From Physcia stellaris (taxonomy: Eukaryota; Ascomycota; Lecanoromycetes; Caliciales; Physciaceae), in assembly GCA_018902385.1 (NCBI GenBank), contig JABSSW010000023.1:186001-250000 (forward strand): a DNA stretch of 64,000 nucleotides, written 5' to 3'. Both the position numbers and the translations under genes were made by a program. Under the pieces are notes generated by a model. That model was not told where the DNA came from, did no database searches, and saw only the letters and a program-made list of their open reading frames with translations. Positions 4,762-22,052 of the stretch are shown here, one piece after another; within the stretch, counting starts at the first letter, position 1; each line of letters begins with the position of its first letter.

Positions 4762-4890
4762 GGCTGCCAGTATACGGACCCCCCACCTTGGTAAATGGAC
4801 TCCCCGCGTTCGGTAAATGGACCCCCTACCCGAAACCCTCCCCGGAACCGCCCCCGGAGGCCCTCCGAAGCTCTCCAAGCCCCCATCTCC
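4762..4890. repeat. MULE left terminal inverted repeat
   Basis: GC-rich arm. It holds two copies of the decamer GGTAAATGGA (about 4790 and 4812). It matches the right arm base for base over most of the outer 66 bp. Further in, it matches only if many C on this strand have become T in the right arm. This arm is essentially unmutated. Confidence 0.85.
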
Positions 4891-5059
4891 TGTCAAAGTT
4901 CGATTTTGCCATACAAAAAGGGCCTTACAATTGGAGATACTTAATCGTTTCAGTGATTCATGTTATTGTTCGAGATAATTACAGAAACAAAATCATAATT
5001 AAATGTAAAACATGCATTTTCGATGAAATTATTTTTTTCATTTCATAACAATTTATTTA

Positions 5060-5700
5060 TCATTTATTTAATTGTTTTTTATTTGCTTTGCAAATCAAAT
5101 CGTTCAAAATCGAAAATTTCGAAACATGATATGATTGCGATATTGATTTCGCAATGATATGTTGTTGAAAATTTTTCGAATTCGAACTTTTCGAATTTTT
5201 ATTAATCAAAATGTATTTTTGATTTACTAATCGTACATTCAATGATTTTCAAATTTTTTCGATGATTTTTCGTACGAAAATACGTCAATGAAAATCGACG
5301 AAATGTCGTTTGTTGTTGACGTCGACGAAATCGAAATTCGAAATCGTGCAACAGATTTTTTTTTTCGTCGTTTTGTTGTAAATTTTTGAATCTGTTTCGT
5401 TCGCGATGTTGTTGTTGTAAAATTTGAAACTTGTTGTATTTGATTTGTTTTTTTTTTTTTTCGTTTTCGTTCGTTTCGTTCGTTTCGTTCGTTTCGTTCA
5501 TTTCGTGATTGATCACGTTTTCGATTTCGATTTTTATCATTTCGTTGATTAGCGATCGTCGCTTCGATATGTTCGAAATTTGAAAAATTTCGTTTGATGA
5601 ATTTCGTCGTCGTTTTCTTTTTTCGCGTCATGACGAAATTTTTTTGCTTGACATTTTTCGATCGTTTTTGAATTTGATTTTTTTGAACTCGTTAATATCG
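5060..5700 (-). pseudogene. MULE transposase remnant, C-terminal basic tail
   Basis: Minus-strand open stretches (5239-5631 and 5202-5540) encode a basic tail rich in Arg, Lys and Thr. A short tandem repeat gives NER and NET triplets (about 5465-5510). Position and strand fit the end of the transposase gene, cut off from its main body by LTR element A, which starts at 5706. Confidence 0.5.
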
Positions 5701-5705
5701 AGAAA

Positions 5706-5857
5706 TGTTAGAGATCGACTTCTGTCTGATCTGAAAAATCTGCTTTTGTCTGACTAATTGATCTGATTAGTCGACTTGACATGACATTTATTCTGACTTT
5801 TTGTATTTAGCATTTTACATTTTTTTATTATTTCATCAATGAGTCAATGTCTTTACA
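5706..5857. repeat. 5' LTR of element A
   Basis: 152 bp. Starts TGTTAG and ends CTTTACA. Paired with 19667-19819; differences are mostly C/T and G/A. Confidence 0.85.
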
Positions 5858-8800
5858 ATTGATAATATCATTCTATCAATCAATCGTTATTATCGCATCA
5901 ATTGATTGCGTAATAATATCAATCAAATCAGTTTTTGTAATTTATTTGCAAAAGTTTTTTTTTTTTTTTTTCAGCTCGTGTTACATCGATCGACTTCGTC
6001 AGTTTATTTATCAAATTTTCTTTTGTTTTCTCATTGTATGAGTATTTCATTTTGATTCATCAACAACAAATTGTATTTGTTTTTTTGAATGTTAGAAAGT
6101 TTTTCACAACTCGTTCAAATTGACTTTTATCAACAATCTCGTGTCATCAGCATTCATTTCGAAGACACACGAATTTCATCGCTTTCTTCAAATCAAACAT
6201 CGTGAAATCGAAAAGCTTAACGAAGAGATCAGACAAATCATAATTGTTATCGTCGTTTCGAATTTCTTTTTTAATCGTTTTGCATTCAGTTTTCGAAATA
6301 CAATCAAATCAGTTTTTTCGAAGTCGATCGAATTTTCTGTCGAGTGAGATACGAATATCAATGTTTTTCGACGAACTGTTCAGAAATTTCGTGAGTATAT
6401 TACTGTCTACAGAATTTCGATTATTTTTCGAAATTTTTTGAATTCACACATTACGAATTCAATTTTCAGCAATTTCAACTCGTCGAACGATTCGTCAGTT
6501 ACAAAAACTTTTTGAATTTCACGTCATCGTGACGTTTTGTTACAATCGATTGTAAAAACAATCGAACGACGACGAATATTTACGTTCAATTTTTCGTCAA
6601 TCATCAGTCAAAATCAGCGAAATCGAAATTTATTTTTATTCGAATTTATTCGATTCAACGATACAAATAGCAATTTTGCGAAAATATTTGATTCAAATTT
6701 TGTTGATACTCGAATCATTTCAATTATTGAAAAAATTTCTCGTGACAACATGAATCAAAATACGCAAATTGACAATTCAGTTCAATCGTTTGCGTTTGAT
6801 TTCAATGAAATTCAACGTCGTGAATTAACGAAAATTGTTTTAATCGTTTTAAATTATCGACGTTGTGATCGAAATGTCGATAAAAATTCATTTTACGATT
6901 CATCGAATTCAAACAACAATTCACAATTTTTTGTTGACAACAACAACAATATTGACGAAAAAAAAATGAAAAACGTTAATTTTTTCGATTTTGATTACGA
7001 TAATGACATTGTTGTCAACGTGAATAAATCAATAAAATATTTCGACAAACATATTTATTACGTTGATGTTTATGTTTTCGTCGATCGTTTAAAAAATTTA
7101 ATTTCATTACGAAATGAAAACAAGTTTCGTATTGTTTTGTCATAATGTTTTCGTGATTACGTTCAAGAATGACATTCATTGACTTTGTTCGAATTGAAAA
7201 AGAACTTGTTGCGAATCGTTTCTTTAGTCACATGATATCAGATTTTAATCAAGTCATTCAAAAAGCGAACAGTTCAGACATTGCAAAATCTGCAAAAAAA
7301 CGATATATCATGTCAAACGTTAAACAACAGCGTAATTTTCGCATGTACGTTCAAAACATTTTTCGACATATCAAAGTCGTTGAATTCGAATTTGTTTTCA
7401 ATCAACTTATTTTGATTTGATTTAATTTTGATTATGAATTTCGACGCGACATTTCAAAATCAAAATCGAATACTATCATACGAATTTTTCTTGATCATTT
7501 GAAAAAAATTCGACATATGATTCGACATGATTAACAAGTTCGTCGTTGACTCGAAATTTAACAATAACAATCGTTCTAATAAGCAAGACAGACGTGATCG
7601 ACAGAACGAATTTTTTCAATCGTCAAATGAATTTAACGTTTTTTTTTTCAAATTTATCGTTTTGTCGATTATTTTGTTTTCGCTCAACAAAACAAGCTTA
7701 TCAAAAACAGTCATTCGTTCAATCAGAACGTCGTCAAGTCGTTTTGTCATTCGCAAAACAATCATTGTTGTTAACGTCAAAAAACGCGTTCGATTCAAAG
7801 AATCAATCACGTCAACAAGAAAAGAAATTTGACGATCGTGATGACAAGAATTTCAAACGTAAAATTTATGTTTTAGATGAATTTGAAAAGAAAAACGATT
7901 AGAAGTCAATTGAGAAAAATTTTCTTATCGACGAGATTAGCGAGAATCAATCAGCATATTATTTTGAAAATTTAGTCTATTATGATTTTGATCATTCTGA
8001 CGATTCTGATCATGAATCGACGATTAATCATTTTATTTTGTCAATCGTTTTTATTTGTCGTCGTTGTATCAAGTTTTTCGTTTCAAACAACAAACTTCAT
8101 AATCACATTCGTAACTTTGAATGTTTTGATTTTAATGTTCAATTGAGAAAGTTTTTTTCAAATCAACAATTGAATTTTTTCAAAGAGATCGAAATCGACG
8201 TTATCGATTTTCATGTCGTCATTACTTTTACGACTAAGATTACAAAGAAATTTGAGTCAGATTTTAGTCATGATTCAATATCGATTGTCTCGTCAGATGT
8301 CGATTTCTCAAAGAATATTGAAATTGATTGTGAATATCGTGATTGAAATTACGCGAAGATTGACGTCGCTTTGTTCGAGAAGATCGAGTCAGAATTCGTT
8401 TGCATTGATATTGAATCAGAAATCACTATTGCGAATCGTCGATTCTTTTTTCGTCAAAATTCTGATTTGTTTATTCGTATTATGATTACATTTTTCATTG
8501 TACGAGAAATAATCATTGATCAACATCAAATTTTTGAGTACGTCATTGTTTCGATGTACTTTCTTGATCAGAAAGATGACAAAATCGTCAAGACTATGAT
8601 TCGTCGCGAAATTCATTTGATGAACAATTTCAAAATCAACATGTTCATCGACAATGATGTCATTGATTTTGAAAAATGAAACATTGACAACGAGCATAGC
8701 AAAATTACGATTGACAATTACGACGTTATTATTTTTATGACATTCGTCGTCGATCGTCAATTGATCAATCGACGACAAATCAATACATATCAAAAAAACA

Positions 8801-9274
8801 ATCATTGTTTCGTTTCAATCAAAAATGATCATTTCAATTCATTATTTTGTCGACAATATTTTTAATGATCGAAACTATCTTTTCGAGTCAAATGAAACTG
8901 AACTCATTTTGTATCTTCATTTTATGAACATCTTTATCGAAACTATTTTTGTTCGCAATGACGACAAACAAATTGTCAAAATTTTACGTAATTATCGCTT
9001 AAATTATTTCATCGAGTTCGACTATTCAAACGCGTTTTTCGTCAACGACGATAACGTTGATTTAATCATGAAAACATCACGCATTATTCACAAAATCTCG
9101 TAATTCAAAAAAATTATCGTCATTTTCGTCACGACGTTGATTATTATCATTGTCGTCGTTACGTCAATTTAACTAATCATCATCGCTATTTCGTTGACGA
9201 TACACATCGAATCGATTTCGTTTTTGATCAATGTTGTCAACGCTAATTTGTCACAAACGTTCATCTTATTTAGC

Positions 9275-9364
9275 GATTTGAGAAAGTCTTTCGATTTGCG
9301 AAAATTTTTCGATTTGCGAAAGTTTTTCGATTTGCGAAAATTTTTCGATTTGCGAAAGTCTTTC
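9275..9364. repeat. Five 18-bp tandem units inside element A
   Basis: Unit GATTTGCGAAAATTTTTC with small variants, five times in a row between the gag-like and reverse transcriptase regions. Confidence 0.85.
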
Positions 9365-9717
9365 ACAAATCAAACTTTCGATTTCTCAAAGAAATTAAAA
9401 TTTTCGATTACGTTTATCATCTCATCGTCGAACATTGTGCTATTCAATGATGTCACTATTTATTTTTTCGACGAAACGAAAATCTTTCGCAATTTGATCG
9501 TTGAGTTTTCGATTTTGTGAACAGACAACGAATTTGCTGATTTATCGAAAAAAATTGAATGAGAATATCTTTTAAGACAGATTGAGAAAATAAAATTTCT
9601 GAAAAATTAAGATGTATTTTTTGAAAGCTAAAAATCGTGCTCTTGTCGATAAAACTTTCGACGAACTACACGATTTAGATCGACTATTCTGAATCAACGA
9701 ATTTATTTCATTCAGTT

Positions 9718-9955
9718 ATCCAGTGTTCTGTGTTTGGAAGGACGTTAATGGAGAGCGTAAGGGTCGCGTTGTCGTAGATATTCGGGGACTTAATGCCATC
9801 ACTCAACCGGATGTCTACCCTTTGCCGCTTCAAATGGAAATCATTTCAGCCGTCAAGAATTGTCCCTATATTACTGTCGTGGATGCATCCGCCTTTTTCT
9901 ACCAGTGGCGAGTACATTCAGATGACCGGCACAAGCTCACTGAAGTCATCGAAAT
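9718..9955. other. Island of normal base composition within the mutated nest
   Basis: About 240 bp inside the reverse transcriptase region of element A carry ordinary GC content and many CC and GG. Sequence on both sides has almost none. The island encodes recognisable Gypsy reverse transcriptase sequence. Its edges are abrupt. Confidence 0.8.
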
Positions 9956-10177
9956 CAGAAATCATTCAACGTTGTCGTAATGAAATATAAAAATTCGTTT
10001 GTTTACGTGCAACGACAAATTGATCGATTATTTCGTGTTTATCGAAAATTTGTCAAAACATACGTTGATGATATCGTCATTTTCTCGCGAATTTGACAAG
10101 AGCACGTTAATCATTTGCGTTAAATATTTATCAAATTGATTAGCGTTAATATATTCATCAAATTTATTAAAGTATTC

Positions 10178-10496
10178 TGTAAGAAATAAGAATTCAGAAT
10201 TTTCGAGAGTGCGATTCGCATCTCGTCAAGCAATTCGATTATCGAAGTTCGGATGATTTCGAAAAGAATCAGTCTCAATTATTTTACAATTCGATCAACG
10301 ATAAACTCAACAAGCTCATATTGTCAATCGAAATCGCTCGAATTCGTACGATTGAATAAATAAAATGTGAATAAGAATAGCTGCAGAACGTAGTTTGTTT
10401 TGTAGCGATTAATAAATCAATATACTACATTTCAAACTATACATTTCTGATGTCAATAATTCATTAAACTATACTATTTTTAATACGAGTTTTACA
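10178..10496. repeat. 5' LTR of element B
   Basis: 319 bp, same orientation as 16495-16814. Few differences remain, mostly of C/T or G/A type. Confidence 0.9.
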
Positions 10497-13400
10497 TTCT
10501 AATCGTTATCATATCTCAGAATGATGTCACTCGTGTATATTTAACAAAATACAATTTTGTTGTTTCGCATACATCATGTCGAATTCTGATAATGATTTGC
10601 TTTTTGAATTTGTCGAAAATGTTGACGTATTTCTTTGATTGATTTATTACAAGCAACAGATCGAAAAAAGTCATAAAAAAAAAATCAAATTGCAAGCTCG
10701 AAATACCGAACGTTCGAAATTTGTAATTTCTATTTCATTTGTAATTTTTATTTCTGCTTTTGTTTTTGATTTTGTTTGAAAGTTTTTCGTCATGAAAATC
10801 ATCGAGACGACTTCGAATCAATATGAAAAAAAAAATTACAAAAAGTGAAAAAGATATTGCAAACAAATGAAAAATCAATTCACGCAAAACAACGTGAATC
10901 ACATGATTCAATTTTCGAATTTAGTCAAAATCGCATACGCTGATATTTATTTTAAGTCAAATAACAATGCGAACAAATTTTGAAACGCAAAAATCGATTT
11001 TCATTCAAACAAGCAATACATTTGAAACGAATTCAAAATTTTTTTGAAAAACGACATCGAACGAGCAATCACGTTGCAACAAAATTTTTTGAAAAAATAT
11101 CGCAAGCACAAACAAAATCACAGTCAATCGATTAAGAATTACAATGTCGAACGAATAAGTATGTTTGCTGAATTGAAATTCGAGTTCAAACTCACGAAAA
11201 CAATGAAATTCAACGATTTTCGTGACGAATTACGTCTGAAATTTCGCTGCATGCTTTTTAAAGAAAAGAAAATTTTCACAAAAACGAAACTGTTTGAACG
11301 ACTCAAACGTATGAAAAACGCTCAGATTTTGAAAAAAGAACTCAAAAATTTCAAAAAGCGTAAAATTTCGTTCGATATTGACAACTTTGAAAGCGAAAAC
11401 GAGAAATTCAAAATTGCGAAATTCAAAAATAAAAAGATCAAAAATATTAACAAAATCAATTCGAATCACGAATCAATCAAGTCGAAAAATACTCGAATGT
11501 ATCGTTGATTCGTCAGCGAATTCAAAAAAATTCAAAACAAAAATAATTGTATAGATTGTGACAAATCAAATCATCAAATCGAAATTTGCACAAACAAAAA
11601 GAACAAGATCATTTTCGCTGATCAGATTCTTGAACAGTCAAAAAACTAGTCGATTTGATGATTTTCGTTCAAATCGTTAAAAAGAAGAAATTTTCGAATT
11701 TCGATTTCGATACGTCGTTTTTCTCAGACATGAACAAAAATCATGTTAACAAGAAAAGAAAACGACGCAAAAAGTTTAAAAAATTCGTGATTCGTAAATG
11801 CGTCAAAATCAAAATTAACATACAAAACGAAAACAAAATTTGAAATAAATCGAAAACAATATTCGATACAAAAACAAAAATTAATTTGATAAATCATGTT
11901 TATGCGAAAAAGCTGAATTTTCGTCGCTCTGAAATTTTAGGCTGTGATGCAATAACAATTGACAATCATCGTTTGAAAACGTATGACGTTTATTTCGTAC
12001 AATTCGAAGTGTCAAACGTCAAAGAAATTAATCGCTTTTTTGAGAAATCGTTTTTGATCGTGAATTTGAACTGAAATTTAACGTTAAACATGTTTTGAAT
12101 ACAACTTTCGAAAATCAAAGTGAATTGAAATGATGACAGTATCAAAACTTGACGTTGCAAAAAGAAGCATTTCATTTTTATCATATGTCGTATCGAGAAC
12201 ATCGAATCAAAACAATTGATCGAAAACGTCATCGATAACGAAATCGAAACGTATCTCATGTTCGTACGAGTGTATATTGACAAACAATTCGACATGCATG
12301 AAATGCATATTTCAAAACGAGTTCAAATAAAATTTGTCTTGATTGAAATGAAAGAAAAATTCGATGTCAAAATCACTTTTTTCGATATCTTGAAAACGTA
12401 TGAAAAATTCGATAGCGAAAATAAAATTTACGAATTATCGAATCATGATTCAGACGATCATGCTATTGATTTAAAAGAAAACAAAAAATCGTCGCATGAA
12501 TCAATTTATTTTTTATTCGAAAATGAGTTTCGAATATTACGTGCTTACATCGAGAAGCATTTAGTTAACGATTTCATTCGATTTTCACAATTTTTTGCAA
12601 AGACGTTCATCTTGTTCGTCAAAAAAAAAAACGATAATTTACGATTATGCGTGAACTACAAAAACCTTAATGTTTTCACGATAAAGAATAAATATTCTCT
12701 ATCGTTAATCGATGAGAGTCTAGATAAACTCAGCAGAATCGTCAAATATATCAGCATTGATTTGATTGTTGCTTATCATCGATTGCGTATCAAGCATGAA
12801 AACGAATGAAAAACGATTTTTCGTATTCGATATGATCATTTCGAGTATAACGTATTTTCTTTCGATTTCACTAACGTTTCGACGACGTTTCAAAATTTCA
12901 TCAATAAAATTTTAACGGTTCGTTTCGATATTAACGTCATTGTATATCTGAATGATATAATAATTTACTCGATGAACGTCGAAATTCATGTCGACGATAT
13001 CAAATGAATTTTTGATCGTCTTAAAGAAAATAATTATACATTGCTTTTGAGAAATGCAAATGATTCGTTGACGAAATAGATTTTCTTGAATTCGTCGTTT
13101 CTTTTCAAAAGATGAAAATGCAAAACAAAAAAATCGAAATTATTCAACAGTGATCAATATTTCGCAACGTTTTCGACATCATGCAATTTCTCGACATCGT
13201 TAATTTTTATCGACGATTCATTAAACATTTCAGTAAAATTGCTGAATTTCTGATCGTTATGCTAAAAAAATCACAAGAGTTTCGAAAAAATACTCGTAAA
13301 CGTAAACGAAATCAAAATCGAAATCGCAACAAATTATCGAATATTCACATCTTTTTGATCAACGAGACATTGAAAGTTTTCAAACGATTTCGCAAAACAT

Positions 13401-16400
13401 TTATCGAAACATCAATTTTACGTCATTTCGATTTCGAACGTGTTATTCGAGTCGAAATCGACGCATTCGACAAAATTTTTGAAATCATTTTATGTCAACA
13501 AGACGACGAGAATCATTGACATTTTGTTGCGTATTTTTCGCGCAAATTGATTTCGACCGAATGTCATTACGAAATTCATGACAAGAAATTGCTGATTATT
13601 GTGATTTCGTTCAAGCAATGAAAACACTATTTCGAAAACGCAAAAAAACAAATTTTTGTTTTTATTGATCATCGCAATCTGAAACAATTTATGATCACAA
13701 TTAAATTGTTTTCACGTCAAATTCGATGAATTCAAAAATTGAATCGATATAATTTTTTAATCGATTATCGTTTCGATAACAAAAATCTTGCTGACGAATT
13801 TTCAAGACGATTTGATCACATGATAATTATTGAAAAAAACGTCGAAAACAATCGTCAAATTTTGAGACAATTGCAAAAGTCATTGATCGCAAATTCGAAA
13901 CGTTTCGAAAAATGCGAATAAATGCGATCAAAATCATGAATGCGATGCATGTCATGAAACGATTCATGAATGCGATGCATAACATGAAGCGTCGATCGCA
14001 TTTAAATGATTCAACAATCGAATCAATCAACGCTGTTTCGAAAACATTTAATTCAAAAAATTCAAAACGAGATCGAATTTCAATCAGCGCTGTTTCGAAA
14101 ACACTCGATTCAAAAAACTTCAAAAATTCGAAACACTCGATTGAGCAAAAGTCAAACGTGACATTCATAAAATGAAAAATTCTTGTGTTAAAATCAGCGA
14201 TTGTATTTGAATGCGCAATGCATAAAGTTCGAATACAGATTGCTTTACGAAAAAAGACGACATATAACGACGAATCAACATTTTCATTGTTGAATTTCGT
14301 TCGTGATTTGATCGTTAAAAATCAATTCGTCTTTGAAATATGTCGAAAATTAATTATTTCGAGAACAGAAACAGACAGTTGACAACACAAAAATGAATTT
14401 TTGTATTACGACGATATCGTTTACATTTCAAAAAATTTGCGTGAAAACGTTATTCGTGTCAATCACGATAATTCGCTCGTTGATCATTTCGACATCGAAC
14501 GAACGTTGAAATTGATACGTCGAAAATATTATTGATCGAATCAAAACTTTATCGAAATTTTTGAAATGCGACAACAAATCAAAAACATTGTGAAACATGC
14601 GTCGTTTGCAAACGAAACAAGATTGCACAACACAAATCATACGACGAGTTTTTTTTTTTTTTCGATTTTGAATTTAAATGAGTTGATCTTTTCATGAATT
14701 TCGTGACAAAACTTTTTCAAGTAAAACGTGAAATGAAGCGATTTACGACTCGATTTTAATGATTGTGAATCGTTTAACGAAAATGATTCATTACATATCA
14801 GTGATTAAGACGATTTTCGCAAAAATCTGATCGAAATTTTATTTCGCGAAGTCATTCGATTTCACGATTTTTTTTCGTCAATCGTTATCGACAGAAATTT
14901 CATTTTCACGTTCAAATACAACGATGCATTATGTTACGTCTTGAAAATTCAACGTAAATTGTTAATCGTTTTTCATTTTCAAATCGATGAACAAATCGAG
15001 CGAATGAACAACGTCATGAAACAATTTTTTCGAATTTTCGTCAATTTCGAGCAAAATGATTGAATAAAACTGTTGTTCATGATCGAGTTCGTTTACAACA
15101 ACAACAAACACGCATTTACAGATATTTTTTCGTTCGAAATTATGCTTGAATATTCGTTTCGCATGTTTTTCGAAAAAACATGAAACAAGAAAATTAAATT
15201 CAAATTCGCAAAAAAACACGCTGAACATTTAGCTGAGCTATTTCGAATATTGAAAAACAATTTATTCGTGACACAACAACAGCAAACGATGTATAAGAAC
15301 GAACGCACGAAATCAATGTCATACAACGTCGAAAATTACGTGAATTTGAACGATAAAAACATCAAAATTAAACGAAACAAAAAATTGAAATGAAAATTCT
15401 TTGAGTCATTTCAAATTCTAAAAATTATAAAGAATCAAATTTATCGTTTAGATTTATTCAAACGTTGACGCATTCACGACGTTTTTCACGTTTTTTTCTA
15501 AAGAAATTCAATGTTTAAAAGAAAAAAAAAGCATACGTCACATTTTTTTGAATTTTCGTATCAAGTTGAAGATATTGAACTCGACGAAAACATGAAAATG
15601 AAAATCACGAAAAAATTTTATGAAATCGAAGTCATCAAAGACAGCAAGATTTTCAAGACAAATGAAATTTCAAACAAATTTTACAACGAATTCGATCTTT
15701 ATTATCTCGTGAAGTAAAAAAATTATGAAAACGCGATTTGAGAATTTGCATCGTTTGTCAAGCATTTTCGAGAAACTTTGCGACAATTTCATAACGAGAA
15801 TTCAAAGAAATTTGATGTCAATAAGGAAACAAATCATCGAAAATCAAGAAAAAAATGAATTGAAATATTTATTGCATGTTAACACATTTTCGTTTTCAAA
15901 GATTTTGTGTGCTATTTATTGCTTAAAATTTACGACGCATGAAGAATTGAATTGTGTCAAAAACATTTTCAAAGATTGTTGTTCGATCTGATCGAACGAT
16001 GAATCGTTGAATAAAAAATGTGAAATGAAATAAAAAAGAATTTCGAAAATTTGAATATCAATGCGATCGCGATTAATGAGCGTTTATCGCGTGACATATT
16101 TTCTCATGATATCGATGTTGATATTCGAAATAAAAAAATGAAAAATGAAAAAATGTTCGAATTCAAAATTTTTGTCAACAAATCAGTTGTCAATCATCAT
16201 ATCGAAAATTGTGAATGATACGAAATCAGACATTCGATCATGAAAGCAGCAAACAATTGATTCATCAAATTATGCTTTTTTGAGTCATTCAAAAGATGTT
16301 CTCTCAAATTTTTAACGCAAGCTGATTATTGAATTCGGACAAAAATATTTCGAAATGCGAAAATCACGATCATAATGATTTTTCAAATCAATGCAAGATC

Positions 16401-16494
16401 AAGACAAGCAGAACACGTCAAAACAAGCAGAATACGTCAAAATTTTTGTTAACATGTTGATTTCAAAAAATTTCGATGCTTAAAAAAAAACGTA

Positions 16495-16814
16495 TGTAAG
16501 AAATAAAAATTCAGAATTTTCGAGAGTGCGATTCGCATTTCGTCAAGCAATTCGATTATCGAAGTTCGAATGATTTCGAAAAAAATCAATTTCAATCATT
16601 TTACAATTCGATCAACGATAAACTCAACAAGCTCATATTGTCAGTCGAAGTCGCTCGAATTCGTACGATTGAATAAATAAAATGTGAATAAAAAGCAGCT
16701 GCAAAACGTAGTTTGTTTTGTAGCGATTAATAAATCAATATACTACATTTCAAGCTATACATCTCTGATGCCAATAATCCATTAGACTATACTATTTCTA
16801 GTACGAGTCTTACA
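16495..16814. repeat. 3' LTR of element B
   Basis: 320 bp. Immediately preceded by a purine run (about 16482-16490) in the position expected for a polypurine tract. Confidence 0.9.
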
Positions 16815-19666
16815 TATTCATTGATTATTCGTCAATGCAATTATTGAATCAAAAAATCGATTCACTTGATTTATTCATTAATGAGAAAAAGTTGAAAGTC
16901 ATTGTTAAATTTCAGTTTTTTCGTACTTTTCGTCAGTTGAAAATCTATCTTGATTTTACTGATTGAATGAGAAAATACGTTTCATTTTACGTCGACGTGT
17001 CTAAATTTTTGCAAAAAAAAAAGATTATTTTGTTAAAATTTGTTTTCAAGAAAGATAACGCTAAAAAAACTTTCGCTAATCGAATTAAAATCGACAATGC
17101 AATTTCAAAAAAACGAGTTTCATACGAAATATTTCAATCTTTATTCTCGAAATTTTTTTATTTCATTCATCATGATTCGAAACGTCAAATTTATGTGAAT
17201 TTGAATGTCAACAAAGAATTCGACATCGACGTTGTCGTTTATCATGTTAAAAAAAACTTTATCAAATCAGACGAATATTCAGTCAAATCGTTTATTCAAT
17301 CAATAATGTTTCTGTTCAAATTATTGAATTCGATCGAAACTCGTTATTGATCGATTGAAATGAAAGTCGCTGACATAATATGAATATTGCGAAAAATTCG
17401 TCATTTCATTGAATCATTCATTTCGTTTACGATGATTTACATTGATTATGACGTTACGTTAAATATAATCAAACAAATTATTTTTTCGTTTTCGTCAACA
17501 AATAAATTGAATTTTCGATTAGTTCGTGTCAGCGACTATATTCAACGTTTTGATTTAAATATTCGTCATAAATCAAACAAGTTTCATTTTGTGTCGAATG
17601 TTTTGTCTAAATTAATTAGTTTCAACGACTCACAAACATCATTTGAAAAAAAATTCGATGCGCTTTTCATTCTTGTCGATGTTGACACAAATCATTCAAA
17701 TGCTGATTTATATTTTACTTGCTCGCTAATAGAAATGAACGATGTTTTTCGACAAAAGATTCTAAATAATTACAAAGTCGATTTTAGCTAAAATCGAATT
17801 TTAAATGTTTTGAGCATCGAAAACGACGTCAATTTTTCTTTTGAGAAAAAGATCGTGAATTCATTTTTCGCGTTGATGACACTATTGACGATCACGTTTT
17901 CGTTTTTCGTCGATTTTGTATATCGAATGTTGTCGTCAAAAACGTGTTGAAAATCGTTCACGACGATTCAAATGATCATTCAAAATACGCAAAATGTTAC
18001 GAGCAAATCGTTTCGACATGATATATTCGTAATTTGACTCGTCAATTACGCGATTATTTGAAATATTGTTCGAAATGTCAAATTAATCGAATCAGACGTC
18101 ATCAATCACACGACTCGCTACAATTTATTTTGTCGTCAGTCATTTCTTTTCACACGTTTAGTTTAAATTTCATTTTTGCGTTGTCAATATCACGCGTCGA
18201 ACAATTCAACGTCGCTATGTCGATTACATGCAAATTCACGAAACGAATTATCATTGTGTTAAACAAGAATATTTGAACAATCGCTCAATAAAATCGAACT
18301 TTATTGAATCAGCTTGATTTCGACGATTGAAAATTATTTAAGATATTAATATTTGATCGAAATCGAAAATTCATGAGAAATCTTTGACGAGAAATTTTCA
18401 CACGTCTTGATGTGAAATTATTGTACAATACAATTTATCATTCACAAACGGATGAACAATCGGAAAAAATTAATCAAACAATCGAGATTGCTTTTCGATT
18501 TCTCATTAATGTGCTGAATAATTTTGCAGACTGAATTGAAATCATATTTGATATTCAACGAAATATTAACAACTCGATAATCATCGCTATTGACAAAACG
18601 TTTAACGAAATCTCGTATGAATTTATTTTCACGCAAGTCTTCGATCTGTTGAAATCTTTCGAAAAATCGTCGTTGTCGTTATCGCAAATGATTCGACAAA
18701 AAGTTGCAAATGTCTTGACTTTTGCGCAAATGAATTTCAAATTCTACTACGATCGCAAACATCAATCAGTTAGTTTCGTCGTCGACGATTGAGCACAAAT
18801 TCGCTTTCACAAAAATTACGATATTTTTTCGATCGCAATGCTGAATAACAAATTTAATCAACAATACATTGCTTTTTTTTCGTGTCACGAAAAAGATCGA
18901 TAAATTAATTTATCGATTGAATATTTTCAAAAAATGAACTATTCATTCGATTTTCTTTATAACTCAGTTGAAATCATGTTTTAATTCAATTAAAGATTTT
19001 TTCAGCGTTATCGTTTCATTCAATCGAATTTTGTCTTCGTCGAAAAAACATTGATTTGATCAAGTTTTTTGAATTGAAACGTATCATCAACAAACGAATG
19101 ATTGCTCGACGTGAAGTCGAATATTTAATTAAATGAAAAAATTATGACTCAGAATATGATGTTTGGAAAAATTTATCGAAATTGAACGATGTCGTGAATT
19201 TGATGCAAAAGTATGAAAATTCAATTCGTCACATGATCGATTTATTTAGTCGTCATCGTTTGTCGAAGTCAATCATGTTGAGAAAGTTTTTCGCAAATCA
19301 AATTAAAGCAATTTTCGTCGACATCAAATTTATTATTAAAAAATTTTTCGCAAATCAAAATAAAACGATTTTCGTTAACAACAAATCTATTATTTCGTCG
19401 TCGATTTCTGTTTTTCAATTTCTAGTTGTCGTGTCACGAAAGTTTTTTTAATTTCGTCAACGTCAACATCGTTGATTTTTTCATTCGAAACGTTAGTATT
19501 ACGTCGCTCAAATCGACTAACTAAGAATTGAAAAATATCTGAAAAAGAATTATTGCTAGAAGAAACGTATGACTATGAATTTATCGAAGTTAAAAGTTTA
19601 TTGAAACATGATTAGAATGATTAAAAGTTACGAAAACGTAATTGACTTTTCTTTATTGAAACAGAC

Positions 19667-19819
19667 TGTTAAAAATCGATTTTTGTTTGATTTGAAGAAT
19701 TTGCTTTTGCTTGACTAATTGATTTGACTAGTCGACTTGACATTGACATTTATTCTGACTTTCTGTATTTAGCATTCTACATTTTCTTACTATTTCATCA
19801 ATGAATCAATGTCTTTACA
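19667..19819. repeat. 3' LTR of element A
   Basis: 153 bp. Partner of 5706-5857, followed by the duplicated AGAAA. Confidence 0.85.
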
Positions 19820-19824
19820 AGAAA

Positions 19825-21740
19825 ATTGTCGATTCGTTTCAAATCGAAATCGAATTCGTCGTCAAAATCGATATCGAATTCGTTTTTATTCGCGTCATTG
19901 ATTTCATTCGTGATTTCATCAATGATTTCAACAATGATTTCATCAATGATTTCATCGATTTTTTGATTAAATTGATTATTTTCGCGTTCATGAAACAATT
20001 TTTTCAACGACGACAAATCATCGAACAATGAATCGAATTCGTCGTCGTCATCGACATCGATTTCGAAATTCAATAATGTAACGTAATCAAAATCATTGAT
20101 GAACGTTTCGAAATCAAAATTCAATTCAAAATTCGATTTTTTGAAACGTCAATGAAAATGTACGTTTTCGAAATGTAATTTTTTTAATTTTTCATTTATT
20201 TTTTCGATTTTGATTTTGATAATATGCGCACAAAAAAAATTCATTGTAATGATGAAAACGTGTGTACAAAACGACAAAAATTTTTCGAACGTGATCGTTT
20301 TGACGAATTGATATTGTTTATTGATTTTTCGTAAAACATGAAAATTGATTCGATCGATTAATTTTTTGTACATCGAATGTTGTATCGAGAATGAAATATT
20401 TCGTTTTTGTTGATCAAGTTTTGTATTGTAATTCTGATAACAATTCATTAATACAATAAAAATTTTCGAAACAACAATGTTCAAATCGTCGATGAAACAT
20501 TTCAAATTGATTTTCAATACGCGATGATCGTTTTTTATTTTGAAAATCGTGCAAATATCGAAATGCAAATATTTGTTGATGTAACATTTGCAAATTTTGT
20601 TGCGATATTTGTTCAATCAAATATTGATCAAATAATCAACGTCAATCGAATAATCGATTTTGAAAATATTAAAAAAAATACGTCAAATTTTCAACATGTC
20701 ATTTTCGATGAAAACGTATACAATTCGATGTCAAACGATCAAAAATTCAAATCAATCGTTTTTTTCGACGAAAAAAATTTTGCAATTTTTCAAAACGTTT
20801 TTGTGAACGTGTCATAAACAAAACAAATTTTTCGCACGTGAATATGTCATTTTCAAAACGTTCATGAAAATCAAATTTCGATCGATGACAATTACATTTG
20901 TTGACATGAATTCGTAAAATTCGTACAAATATCGTAAACAATTCAAAAATCATTCGAAATTTTTTTTTTTTTTTTTTTTTTAAAAACGCGAAATCAATGT
21001 AAAAATTAATATTTATAACAATGTAATTCATGATAATCATCAACGACATGTCATATTTGTTGATTTTGTAAATGCAATTCATGACAAAAATTTCGAAATT
21101 TTTGCATAAAATTTTTGACGTCGTTGTTCACGAAAAAAAATTTACGCAAACGTTTGATTTCGTCATTCATTTCACATTTCGCGAAAAATTTTTTCGTGCG
21201 AATCAAAAAATAAAATAAATGTTGAATAATTGTATGACGATTCAAACGATAATTTTTGATTTTTTTTTTCGCGTTGTAAATGTTTTGAACAATGAATCGA
21301 ATCGTAAAATCATTGAAACGAAATGAAATAAAAATTTCGTCGAACGTGCGATTTGTAAAATTGTCAATTGATTGAAACGTAAAACATTTGTTACGAATTA
21401 TTCATTTTGTTTGATAACGTTGTCGATTTTTATCATTTTATTTTCAATGAATTTTTTCGTTTTGTAAATCGCAACGATCGAAAACTCGTTTTTTTCGAAA
21501 TTTTCGTGATTGTGCGTATCATTCACAACGTTGAAATTTCAAATTTTTTTCGATTTGTAATAAATCGTCGTGATCACGAACGAACAATCGCATTTGATGT
21601 TATTGATGTCACGTTTGCGTTTTTTGATTTTTTTGATTCGAAAATTTCGATCACGATCACAAATAAATTTGAATTTTTTCAATAAATCAATTTTTTCGTT
21701 TTTTTTGAATCGTTTTTTATTGACGCGATAATCGTTGATT
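19825..21740 (-). pseudogene. MULE transposase remnant, N-terminal and catalytic part
   Basis: Read on the minus strand. A FAR1-like zinc-binding start (CDRDRNFRIKK, around 21660) comes first. The MULE core follows at 21082-20747 (YKINKYDMSL, then IDFAFL). After a linker comes a C-terminal SWIM-like motif around 20270-20200 (CTHVF ... NFFCAHI). An acidic repeat region (19905-19965, built of about 12-bp units) lies next to the LTR insertion. Several stops and frame shifts break it. The assignment rests on matches to the fungal MULE family as I remember it. Confidence 0.7.
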
Positions 21741-21924
21741 TCGACATGCGCGTCAACGACAACAACGAATTTTTTTCAAATAAAATAATTTTGCTCGAAA
21801 AAAAATAATAAATTCATGATTGTTGTTGTGATGCAAATCGACGAAATGTAAAATGATCAAAATGCAAAAAATAAACACGAAAACGTTTCGCGAATAAATT
21901 GATCGCGACACGCGAAAATTCTGA

Positions 21925-22052
21925 TTATTAAACTTGAAAAATTTCGAAAAACTTTCGAAAGCGATTTCGAAAAAGAGTTTCGAATAAGGAAATCCATTTA
22001 CCGAACGCGGAGAGTCCACTTATCAAGATGGGGGGTCCGTATACTGCTAACC
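21925..22052. repeat. MULE right terminal inverted repeat
   Basis: Inverted copy of the left arm. The outer part (about 21985-22052) has normal composition. The inner part is heavily converted to AT, with CC turned to TT or TC while CG is kept. The pair therefore records the local mutation process. Confidence 0.8.

Follow-up and report, generated by a model that had tools for sequence, protein, structure and literature searches.

Why should some 17 kb of DNA contain hardly any CC or GG, when the genes that flank it are ordinary in composition? The stretch in question occupies positions 4943-21984 (17,042 bp, delimited by dinucleotide counts and by the positions of CC and GG) of the window, that is, of the whole 64,000-nucleotide stretch of DNA that we analysed (C23:186001-250000, from a genome of 43.97 Mb in 147 contigs). 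The boundaries of this block are sharp, the final GG on the left lying at 4933 and the earliest on the right at 21988. A preliminary description had reported that CC and GG are nearly absent outside one small island, that CG, CA and TG remain common without a rise in TA, and that this might reflect a RIP-like process with an unusual target context. The compositional part of that description stands. With a GC content of 0.292, the block holds 39 CC+GG against 728 expected from base composition, and the minimum in 300 base-composition shuffles was 654, so base composition does not explain the loss. Twenty-six of the 39 lie within the island at 9718-9930, and the other 13 are spread between 10251 and 19165. 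Observed/expected ratios in the block were 0.054 for CC, 0.416 for CT, 1.18 for CA, 2.92 for CG, 0.40 for TA, 1.53 for TC and 1.31 for TT, compared with 0.93 (CC), 1.07 (CT), 1.08 (CA), 0.92 (CG) and 0.70 (TA) in the right flank (22,051-64,000). Comparison of dinucleotide frequencies with the flank thus reveals a strong loss of CpC with CpG and CpA kept (and TG still common), rather than a depletion of CpA accompanied by a high TpA/ApT. Indeed, TpA/ApT is 0.41 and (CpA+TpG)/(ApC+GpT) is 1.29, which makes the block negative by the classical RIP thresholds (TpA/ApT >= 0.89 with (CpA+TpG)/(ApC+GpT) <= 1.03, as given in passages of PMC3897900 and PMC2621366).

The block is a nest, in which an outer element with inverted ends contains a Ty3-like LTR element (element 1), which in turn contains a second LTR element (element 2). 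The outer element (4768-22046), a putative MULE according to the preliminary description, was delimited by comparing its ends, which lie at 4768-4821 and 21993-22046 and are 93% identical; its margins keep CC over the outermost 165 bp on the left and about 60 bp on the right. Element 1 (5706-19819, plus strand; LTRs at 5706-5857 and 19667-19819) is defined by its LTR pair, its ends, the AGAAA that flanks it on both sides and a reverse transcriptase match, and element 2 (10178-16814, plus strand; LTRs at 10178-10496 and 16495-16814, 93% identical) by its LTR pair, its ends and a TATTC on both sides. The 13 CC/GG that lie elsewhere than in the island are shared between element 2 (ten) and the right-hand portion of element 1 (three), the outer element having none. 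The outer element has a (CT+AG)/(CT+AG+TT+AA) ratio of 0.014-0.071, and both LTR elements, outside the island, one of 0.125-0.139; in the right interior of the outer element (19821-21984), which has zero CC/GG, CT is almost gone (0.014, against 0.508 in the flank). These residues of CC/GG and CT fit the view that the outer element, as the older one, has been more exposed, even if the CT ratio does not separate element 1 from element 2. When the inverted arms of the outer element were compared, with the left arm as the less mutated reference, C-to-T changes were found at 23/40 CC, 7/11 CT, 0/7 CA and 0/18 CG, much as the preliminary description had read these arms (C lost before C or T, CG kept). 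CC is only partly changed here because the outermost 60 bp or so are almost untouched in both arms.

Within the nearly saturated element 1 there is a 213-bp intact island (9718-9930, plus strand), which could be accounted for by conversion from an unmutated copy or by a fault in the assembly. Its 26 CC/GG lie in part of a reverse transcriptase: the translation matches the Ty3 enzyme in a Protein Data Bank search (E 0.0004), and it is here that element 1 is recognised as encoding a Ty3-type reverse transcriptase. Pfam gave no match for the island translation, nor for an open reading frame of 202 aa within the block. Sequences matching the island were found at 14 other places in the genome, 12 of which are CC-poor (0-8 CC/GG in 3.1-3.4 kb) and lack a comparable island in the 3.1-3.4 kb examined at each. 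The other two, L042 and L044, are more distant copies of element 1, where some 3.3 kb contain 30 and 38 CC/GG, respectively; these may be either older copies in which CC has begun to return or copies that were only partly mutated.

The island provides an unmutated reference against which substitutions in the copies elsewhere can be counted. Pooled over five close copies on other contigs, C had become T at 118 of 126 CC, 82 of 104 CT, 4 of 139 CA and 2 of 130 CG, on both DNA strands, and 552 of 555 A/T comparisons were unchanged. One of these copies (L036) differs from the island by 34 changes, every one of them C to T at CpY, with zero other substitutions over 212 sites; in another (L038) CC was changed at 26/26, and in a third (L040) at 25/25, together with 21/21 CT. 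The base 5' of the target had no visible effect at CC (ACC 22/24, CCC 21/24, GCC 27/28, TCC 48/50), and at CT, where the proportions ran from 10/15 for GCT to 30/35 for TCT, the numbers are too small to exclude a weak one. Fisher tests gave about 1e-59 for CC versus CA and about 1e-38 for CT versus CA, values that should be read with caution, as related copies do not provide independent sites. Six more distant copies were tabulated separately (three further matches, L045, L047 and L049, cover only 148, 134 and 96 bp and were left out of the tables). Four of the six (L041, L043, L046 and L048), when pooled, gave CC 84/104, CT 56/83, CA 18/112 and CG 27/104, while L042 gave 18/26, 13/21, 4/28 and 6/26, and L044 14/26, 9/21, 3/28 and 4/26, for the same contexts. 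In all six, CC and then CT still exceed the other contexts over a higher background, and in the four pooled copies the contrast is weaker than in the close ones.

The same rule was found in a sequence of an altogether different kind. An rDNA unit on another contig (C41:40001-54000; L051, L052), which matches the 5.8S, LSU and SSU models, is CC-poor throughout (38 CC/GG in 14 kb) and provides the sole 5.8S match among the best 39 of 2644 candidates. Measured against the letters conserved in Rfam, the unit had C-to-T changes at 37/41 CC, 25/54 CT, 1/42 CA and 0/34 CG, and 328 of 335 conserved A/U letters were unchanged. These counts cover the whole of the 5.8S, six of the eight LSU blocks (the two omitted have no capitals) and ten SSU alignment stretches, a few SSU pieces, some with capitals, being left out. 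Counting every rRNA letter, whether conserved or variable, blunts the contrast (CC 132/187, CT 78/146, CA 14/127, CG 34/156), as expected wherever the consensus does not represent the sequence of this fungus itself. The SSU match also contains extra stretches (e.g., of 328 and 222 bases), which may be introns. Island copies and rDNA show the same order, CpC > CpT >> CpA, CpG, and in each of them CC differs from CT (p 0.001 and 8e-6, respectively).

A third comparison comes from the LTR of element 2, which occurs at at least 40 places in the genome (the best 40 of 182 candidates). In a set of 22 LTRs (the two in the window and 20 of the 38 others listed), the 58 invariant C positions are all CpG (36) or CpA (22). 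The 77 variable positions of the C/T type comprise 49 CT, 16 CC, 11 CA and 1 CG, so that 65 of the 77 are CC or CT, and at the 12 variable CA and CG positions the minor letter is present in only one to three of the 22 copies. Differences within five LTR pairs, paired by spacing, are almost all transitions. The LTRs thus agree with the rule, CpG and CpA being nearly untouched and few CC being left.

How widespread is this signature? We sampled 40 stretches of 2 kb at chosen round coordinates (80 kb in all, and thus not a strictly random sample) and divided them into 160 windows of 500 bp. Nineteen of these, or about 12%, contained three or fewer CC/GG, one contained four, and the remaining 140 contained 25 or more. 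A GC content below 0.38 was confined to 20 windows, namely the 19 CC-poor ones (GC 0.16-0.34) plus the one with four CC/GG. The CC-poor windows fall in 6 of the 40 stretches; three of these six were searched (1 kb each), and all three proved to be repeats, with 40, 8 and 69 matches including self, whereas one CC-normal control stretch had no match beyond itself and a short tandem copy that overlaps it. None of the 19 CC-poor windows passed the classical RIP thresholds, and the six windows that did pass look ordinary (GC 0.44-0.50, 38-59 CC/GG).

Taken together, three direct comparisons and the genome sample support the preliminary suggestion of a RIP-like process with an unusual target context: C is lost before C or T, and CpG is kept, as is CpA. 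Mutation at CpC is close to saturation, nested elements and an rDNA unit are both targeted, and many contigs are involved. We therefore consider repeat-directed C-to-T mutation of the RIP type, following a CpY rule (CpC > CpT >> CpA, CpG), to be the probable explanation. As in RIP, the changes are C to T on both strands in repeats, with the flanks spared; the CpA preference and raised TpA/ApT of the Neurospora type were not seen (CA changed at 4/139 and 1/42; TpA/ApT 0.41). In such a process, which affects both strands, CpC would be mutated first and nearly to completion and CpT second, with CpA and CpG largely spared. Mutation presumably came as a burst rather than by slow decay: in close copies that have 85-100% of their CpC changed, hardly any other substitution is seen. 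It may operate on paired copies during the sexual phase.

A search for methyltransferase genes of the RID and DIM-2 types, which the preliminary description had proposed as a check, yielded four PF00145 matches at three loci, two of the matches being taken as exons of one gene. One locus appears DIM-2-like, although its BAH match scores under the cut-off. The other two (L001 and L003) have DNA_methylase and are 39% identical to each other over 195 aa, and their scanned open frames yielded no BAH match. They carry EET and EQT where the DIM-2-like locus has ENV, motifs that we take to distinguish the RID/Masc1 type. Judged by these motifs and by the lack of BAH (a criterion found in passages of PMC7862722), L001 and L003 look RID/Masc1-like. 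The presence of RID/Masc1-like and DIM-2-like genes would point to a filamentous ascomycete. The methyltransferase domains are divided between open frames; exon structure was read by eye, and the L001 match spans two TGA taken as intronic. The methyltransferase frames have an ordinary CC content (112-115 per kb). The catalyst may be encoded at one of these loci, by either RID/Masc1-like gene or else by the DIM-2-like gene, and would then have a shifted preference for the base 3' of the target C. Whether the target of a repeat-triggered mutator has switched from CpA to CpY in this way, perhaps through divergence of one RID/Masc1-like paralogue, we regard as an evenly balanced proposition.

Other explanations fare less well. 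The presence of a DIM-2-like locus, and the non-CG methylation reported for ascomycetes in passages of PMC7862722, would suit a scheme in which repeats are methylated at CpC and CpT and the 5-methylcytosine then deaminates slowly and spontaneously to T. We think this unlikely, given that copies with 85-100% of CpC changed show only 3 changes in 555 A/T comparisons (and L036 none), and that the edges of the block are sharp. Decay through CpG methylation was also considered and rejected, CpG being changed at only 0/34 sites in the rDNA and 2/130 in the island copies.

Slightly less likely again is the action on repeats, at CpY, of a dedicated DNA cytosine deaminase outside the RID family. The target order is unlike the published preferences that we found, as far as the passages concerned go, and this would favour such an enzyme, but at CC the 5' base makes no visible difference, and the block is enriched in TC (1.53) rather than depleted of it. 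A profile search with APOBEC_N was silent in this genome and silent in the control genomes too, and hence uninformative. Mutation by APOBEC-type enzymes, like that by ultraviolet light, varies with the 5' base (TC or CC), and the dependence expected of either was not observed. Finally, although the intact island could itself have arisen locally through faulty assembly or polishing, a composition bias or assembly artefact (an AT-rich or misassembled region) is scarcely credible as the source of the signature, given 39 CC+GG against a shuffle minimum of 654 and the recurrence of the pattern at 12 of the 14 other island places, in the rDNA unit and in 6 of the 40 sampled stretches.

Several observations count against the RIP reading: the intact island, the weaker contrasts in the distant copies and over all rRNA letters, and the escape of short elements. 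Six of the latter (L006, L009, L011, L016, L017 and L022; 623-698 bp), which share the ends of the outer element and are 81-93% identical, all retain normal CC, even though they exceed the Neurospora RIP threshold (at least 80% identity over at least 400 bp, according to a passage of PMC3017866). It is possible that the length threshold here lies above the 400 bp of Neurospora, though other reasons for their escape are conceivable. Six other matched arms (L015, L019, L024, L026, L028 and L029) border on stretches of 1.1 kb or more that lack CC altogether.

If the target rule has indeed shifted from CpA to CpY, this would represent a natural specificity switch in the RIP enzyme, and genomes with such a switch would be overlooked by surveys based on TpA/ApT. 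The common index thresholds miss mutation of this kind, both in the block (0.41 and 1.29) and in the genome sample (0/19 CC-poor windows). To our knowledge, how RIP picks its cytosine is an open question, and RIP enzyme activity has never been reconstituted; a near-reversed 3' preference in a genome with RID-like genes offers a natural contrast for mapping specificity. The rule would also alter the consequences of mutation. CpY targeting cannot make stops from CAA, CAG or CGA, and the sole route from sense to stop is TGG to TGA; inactivation would therefore lean more on missense change.

How does this system compare with those already known? As in Neurospora crassa, C becomes T on both strands in repeats, and RID/Masc1-like and DIM-2-like genes are apparently present; unlike there, where the order is CpA > CpT > CpG > CpC, the order here (CpC > CpT >> CpA, CpG) is nearly reversed. 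(Passages of PMC5496416 give that order for Neurospora, and CpA about equal to CpG, with CpT > CpC, for Trichoderma.) In the passages of PMC4352252 on ten genomes, the RIP signatures named are CpA, CpT and CpG, the latter two being discussed as RIP or RIP-like. The CpT signature of Botrytis, Sclerotinia and Magnaporthe described there resembles ours in that CpT is a major target, but in those fungi CpT accompanies CpA, whereas here CpC leads and CpA is spared. Passages elsewhere report alignments from RIP-capable fungi in which CpT to TpT is a dominant form (PMC7882544), a CpA bias in Mycosphaerella graminicola repeats (PMC4522978), and in Monilinia a CpA type with CpC-to-TpT double changes (PMC8959702); CpC to TpC is listed as one of four formal possibilities in PMC2621366. 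Among the open-access passages covered we found no case of RIP led by CpC, and priority for such a rule is thus not established.

In architecture there is a likeness to the strong RIP of the lichen fungus Cladonia rangiformis (PMC12542154), in which, as here, blocks are sharp and elements nested, short DNA elements (about 730 bp) mostly escape and later inserts have a higher GC content. Affected sequence there mostly has a GC content of 10-20%, against 0.16-0.34 in our CC-poor windows; the words "CpA" and "dinucleotide" are absent from the main text of that paper, so the target context is not comparable. The rDNA unit, for its part, recalls the mutated rRNA pseudogenes of ascomycetes (passages of PMC5555474), which likewise carry C-to-T changes. 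In those pseudogenes, however, the main target is CpA/TpG, with CpT comparatively high in N. crassa, whereas here it is CpC and CpT.
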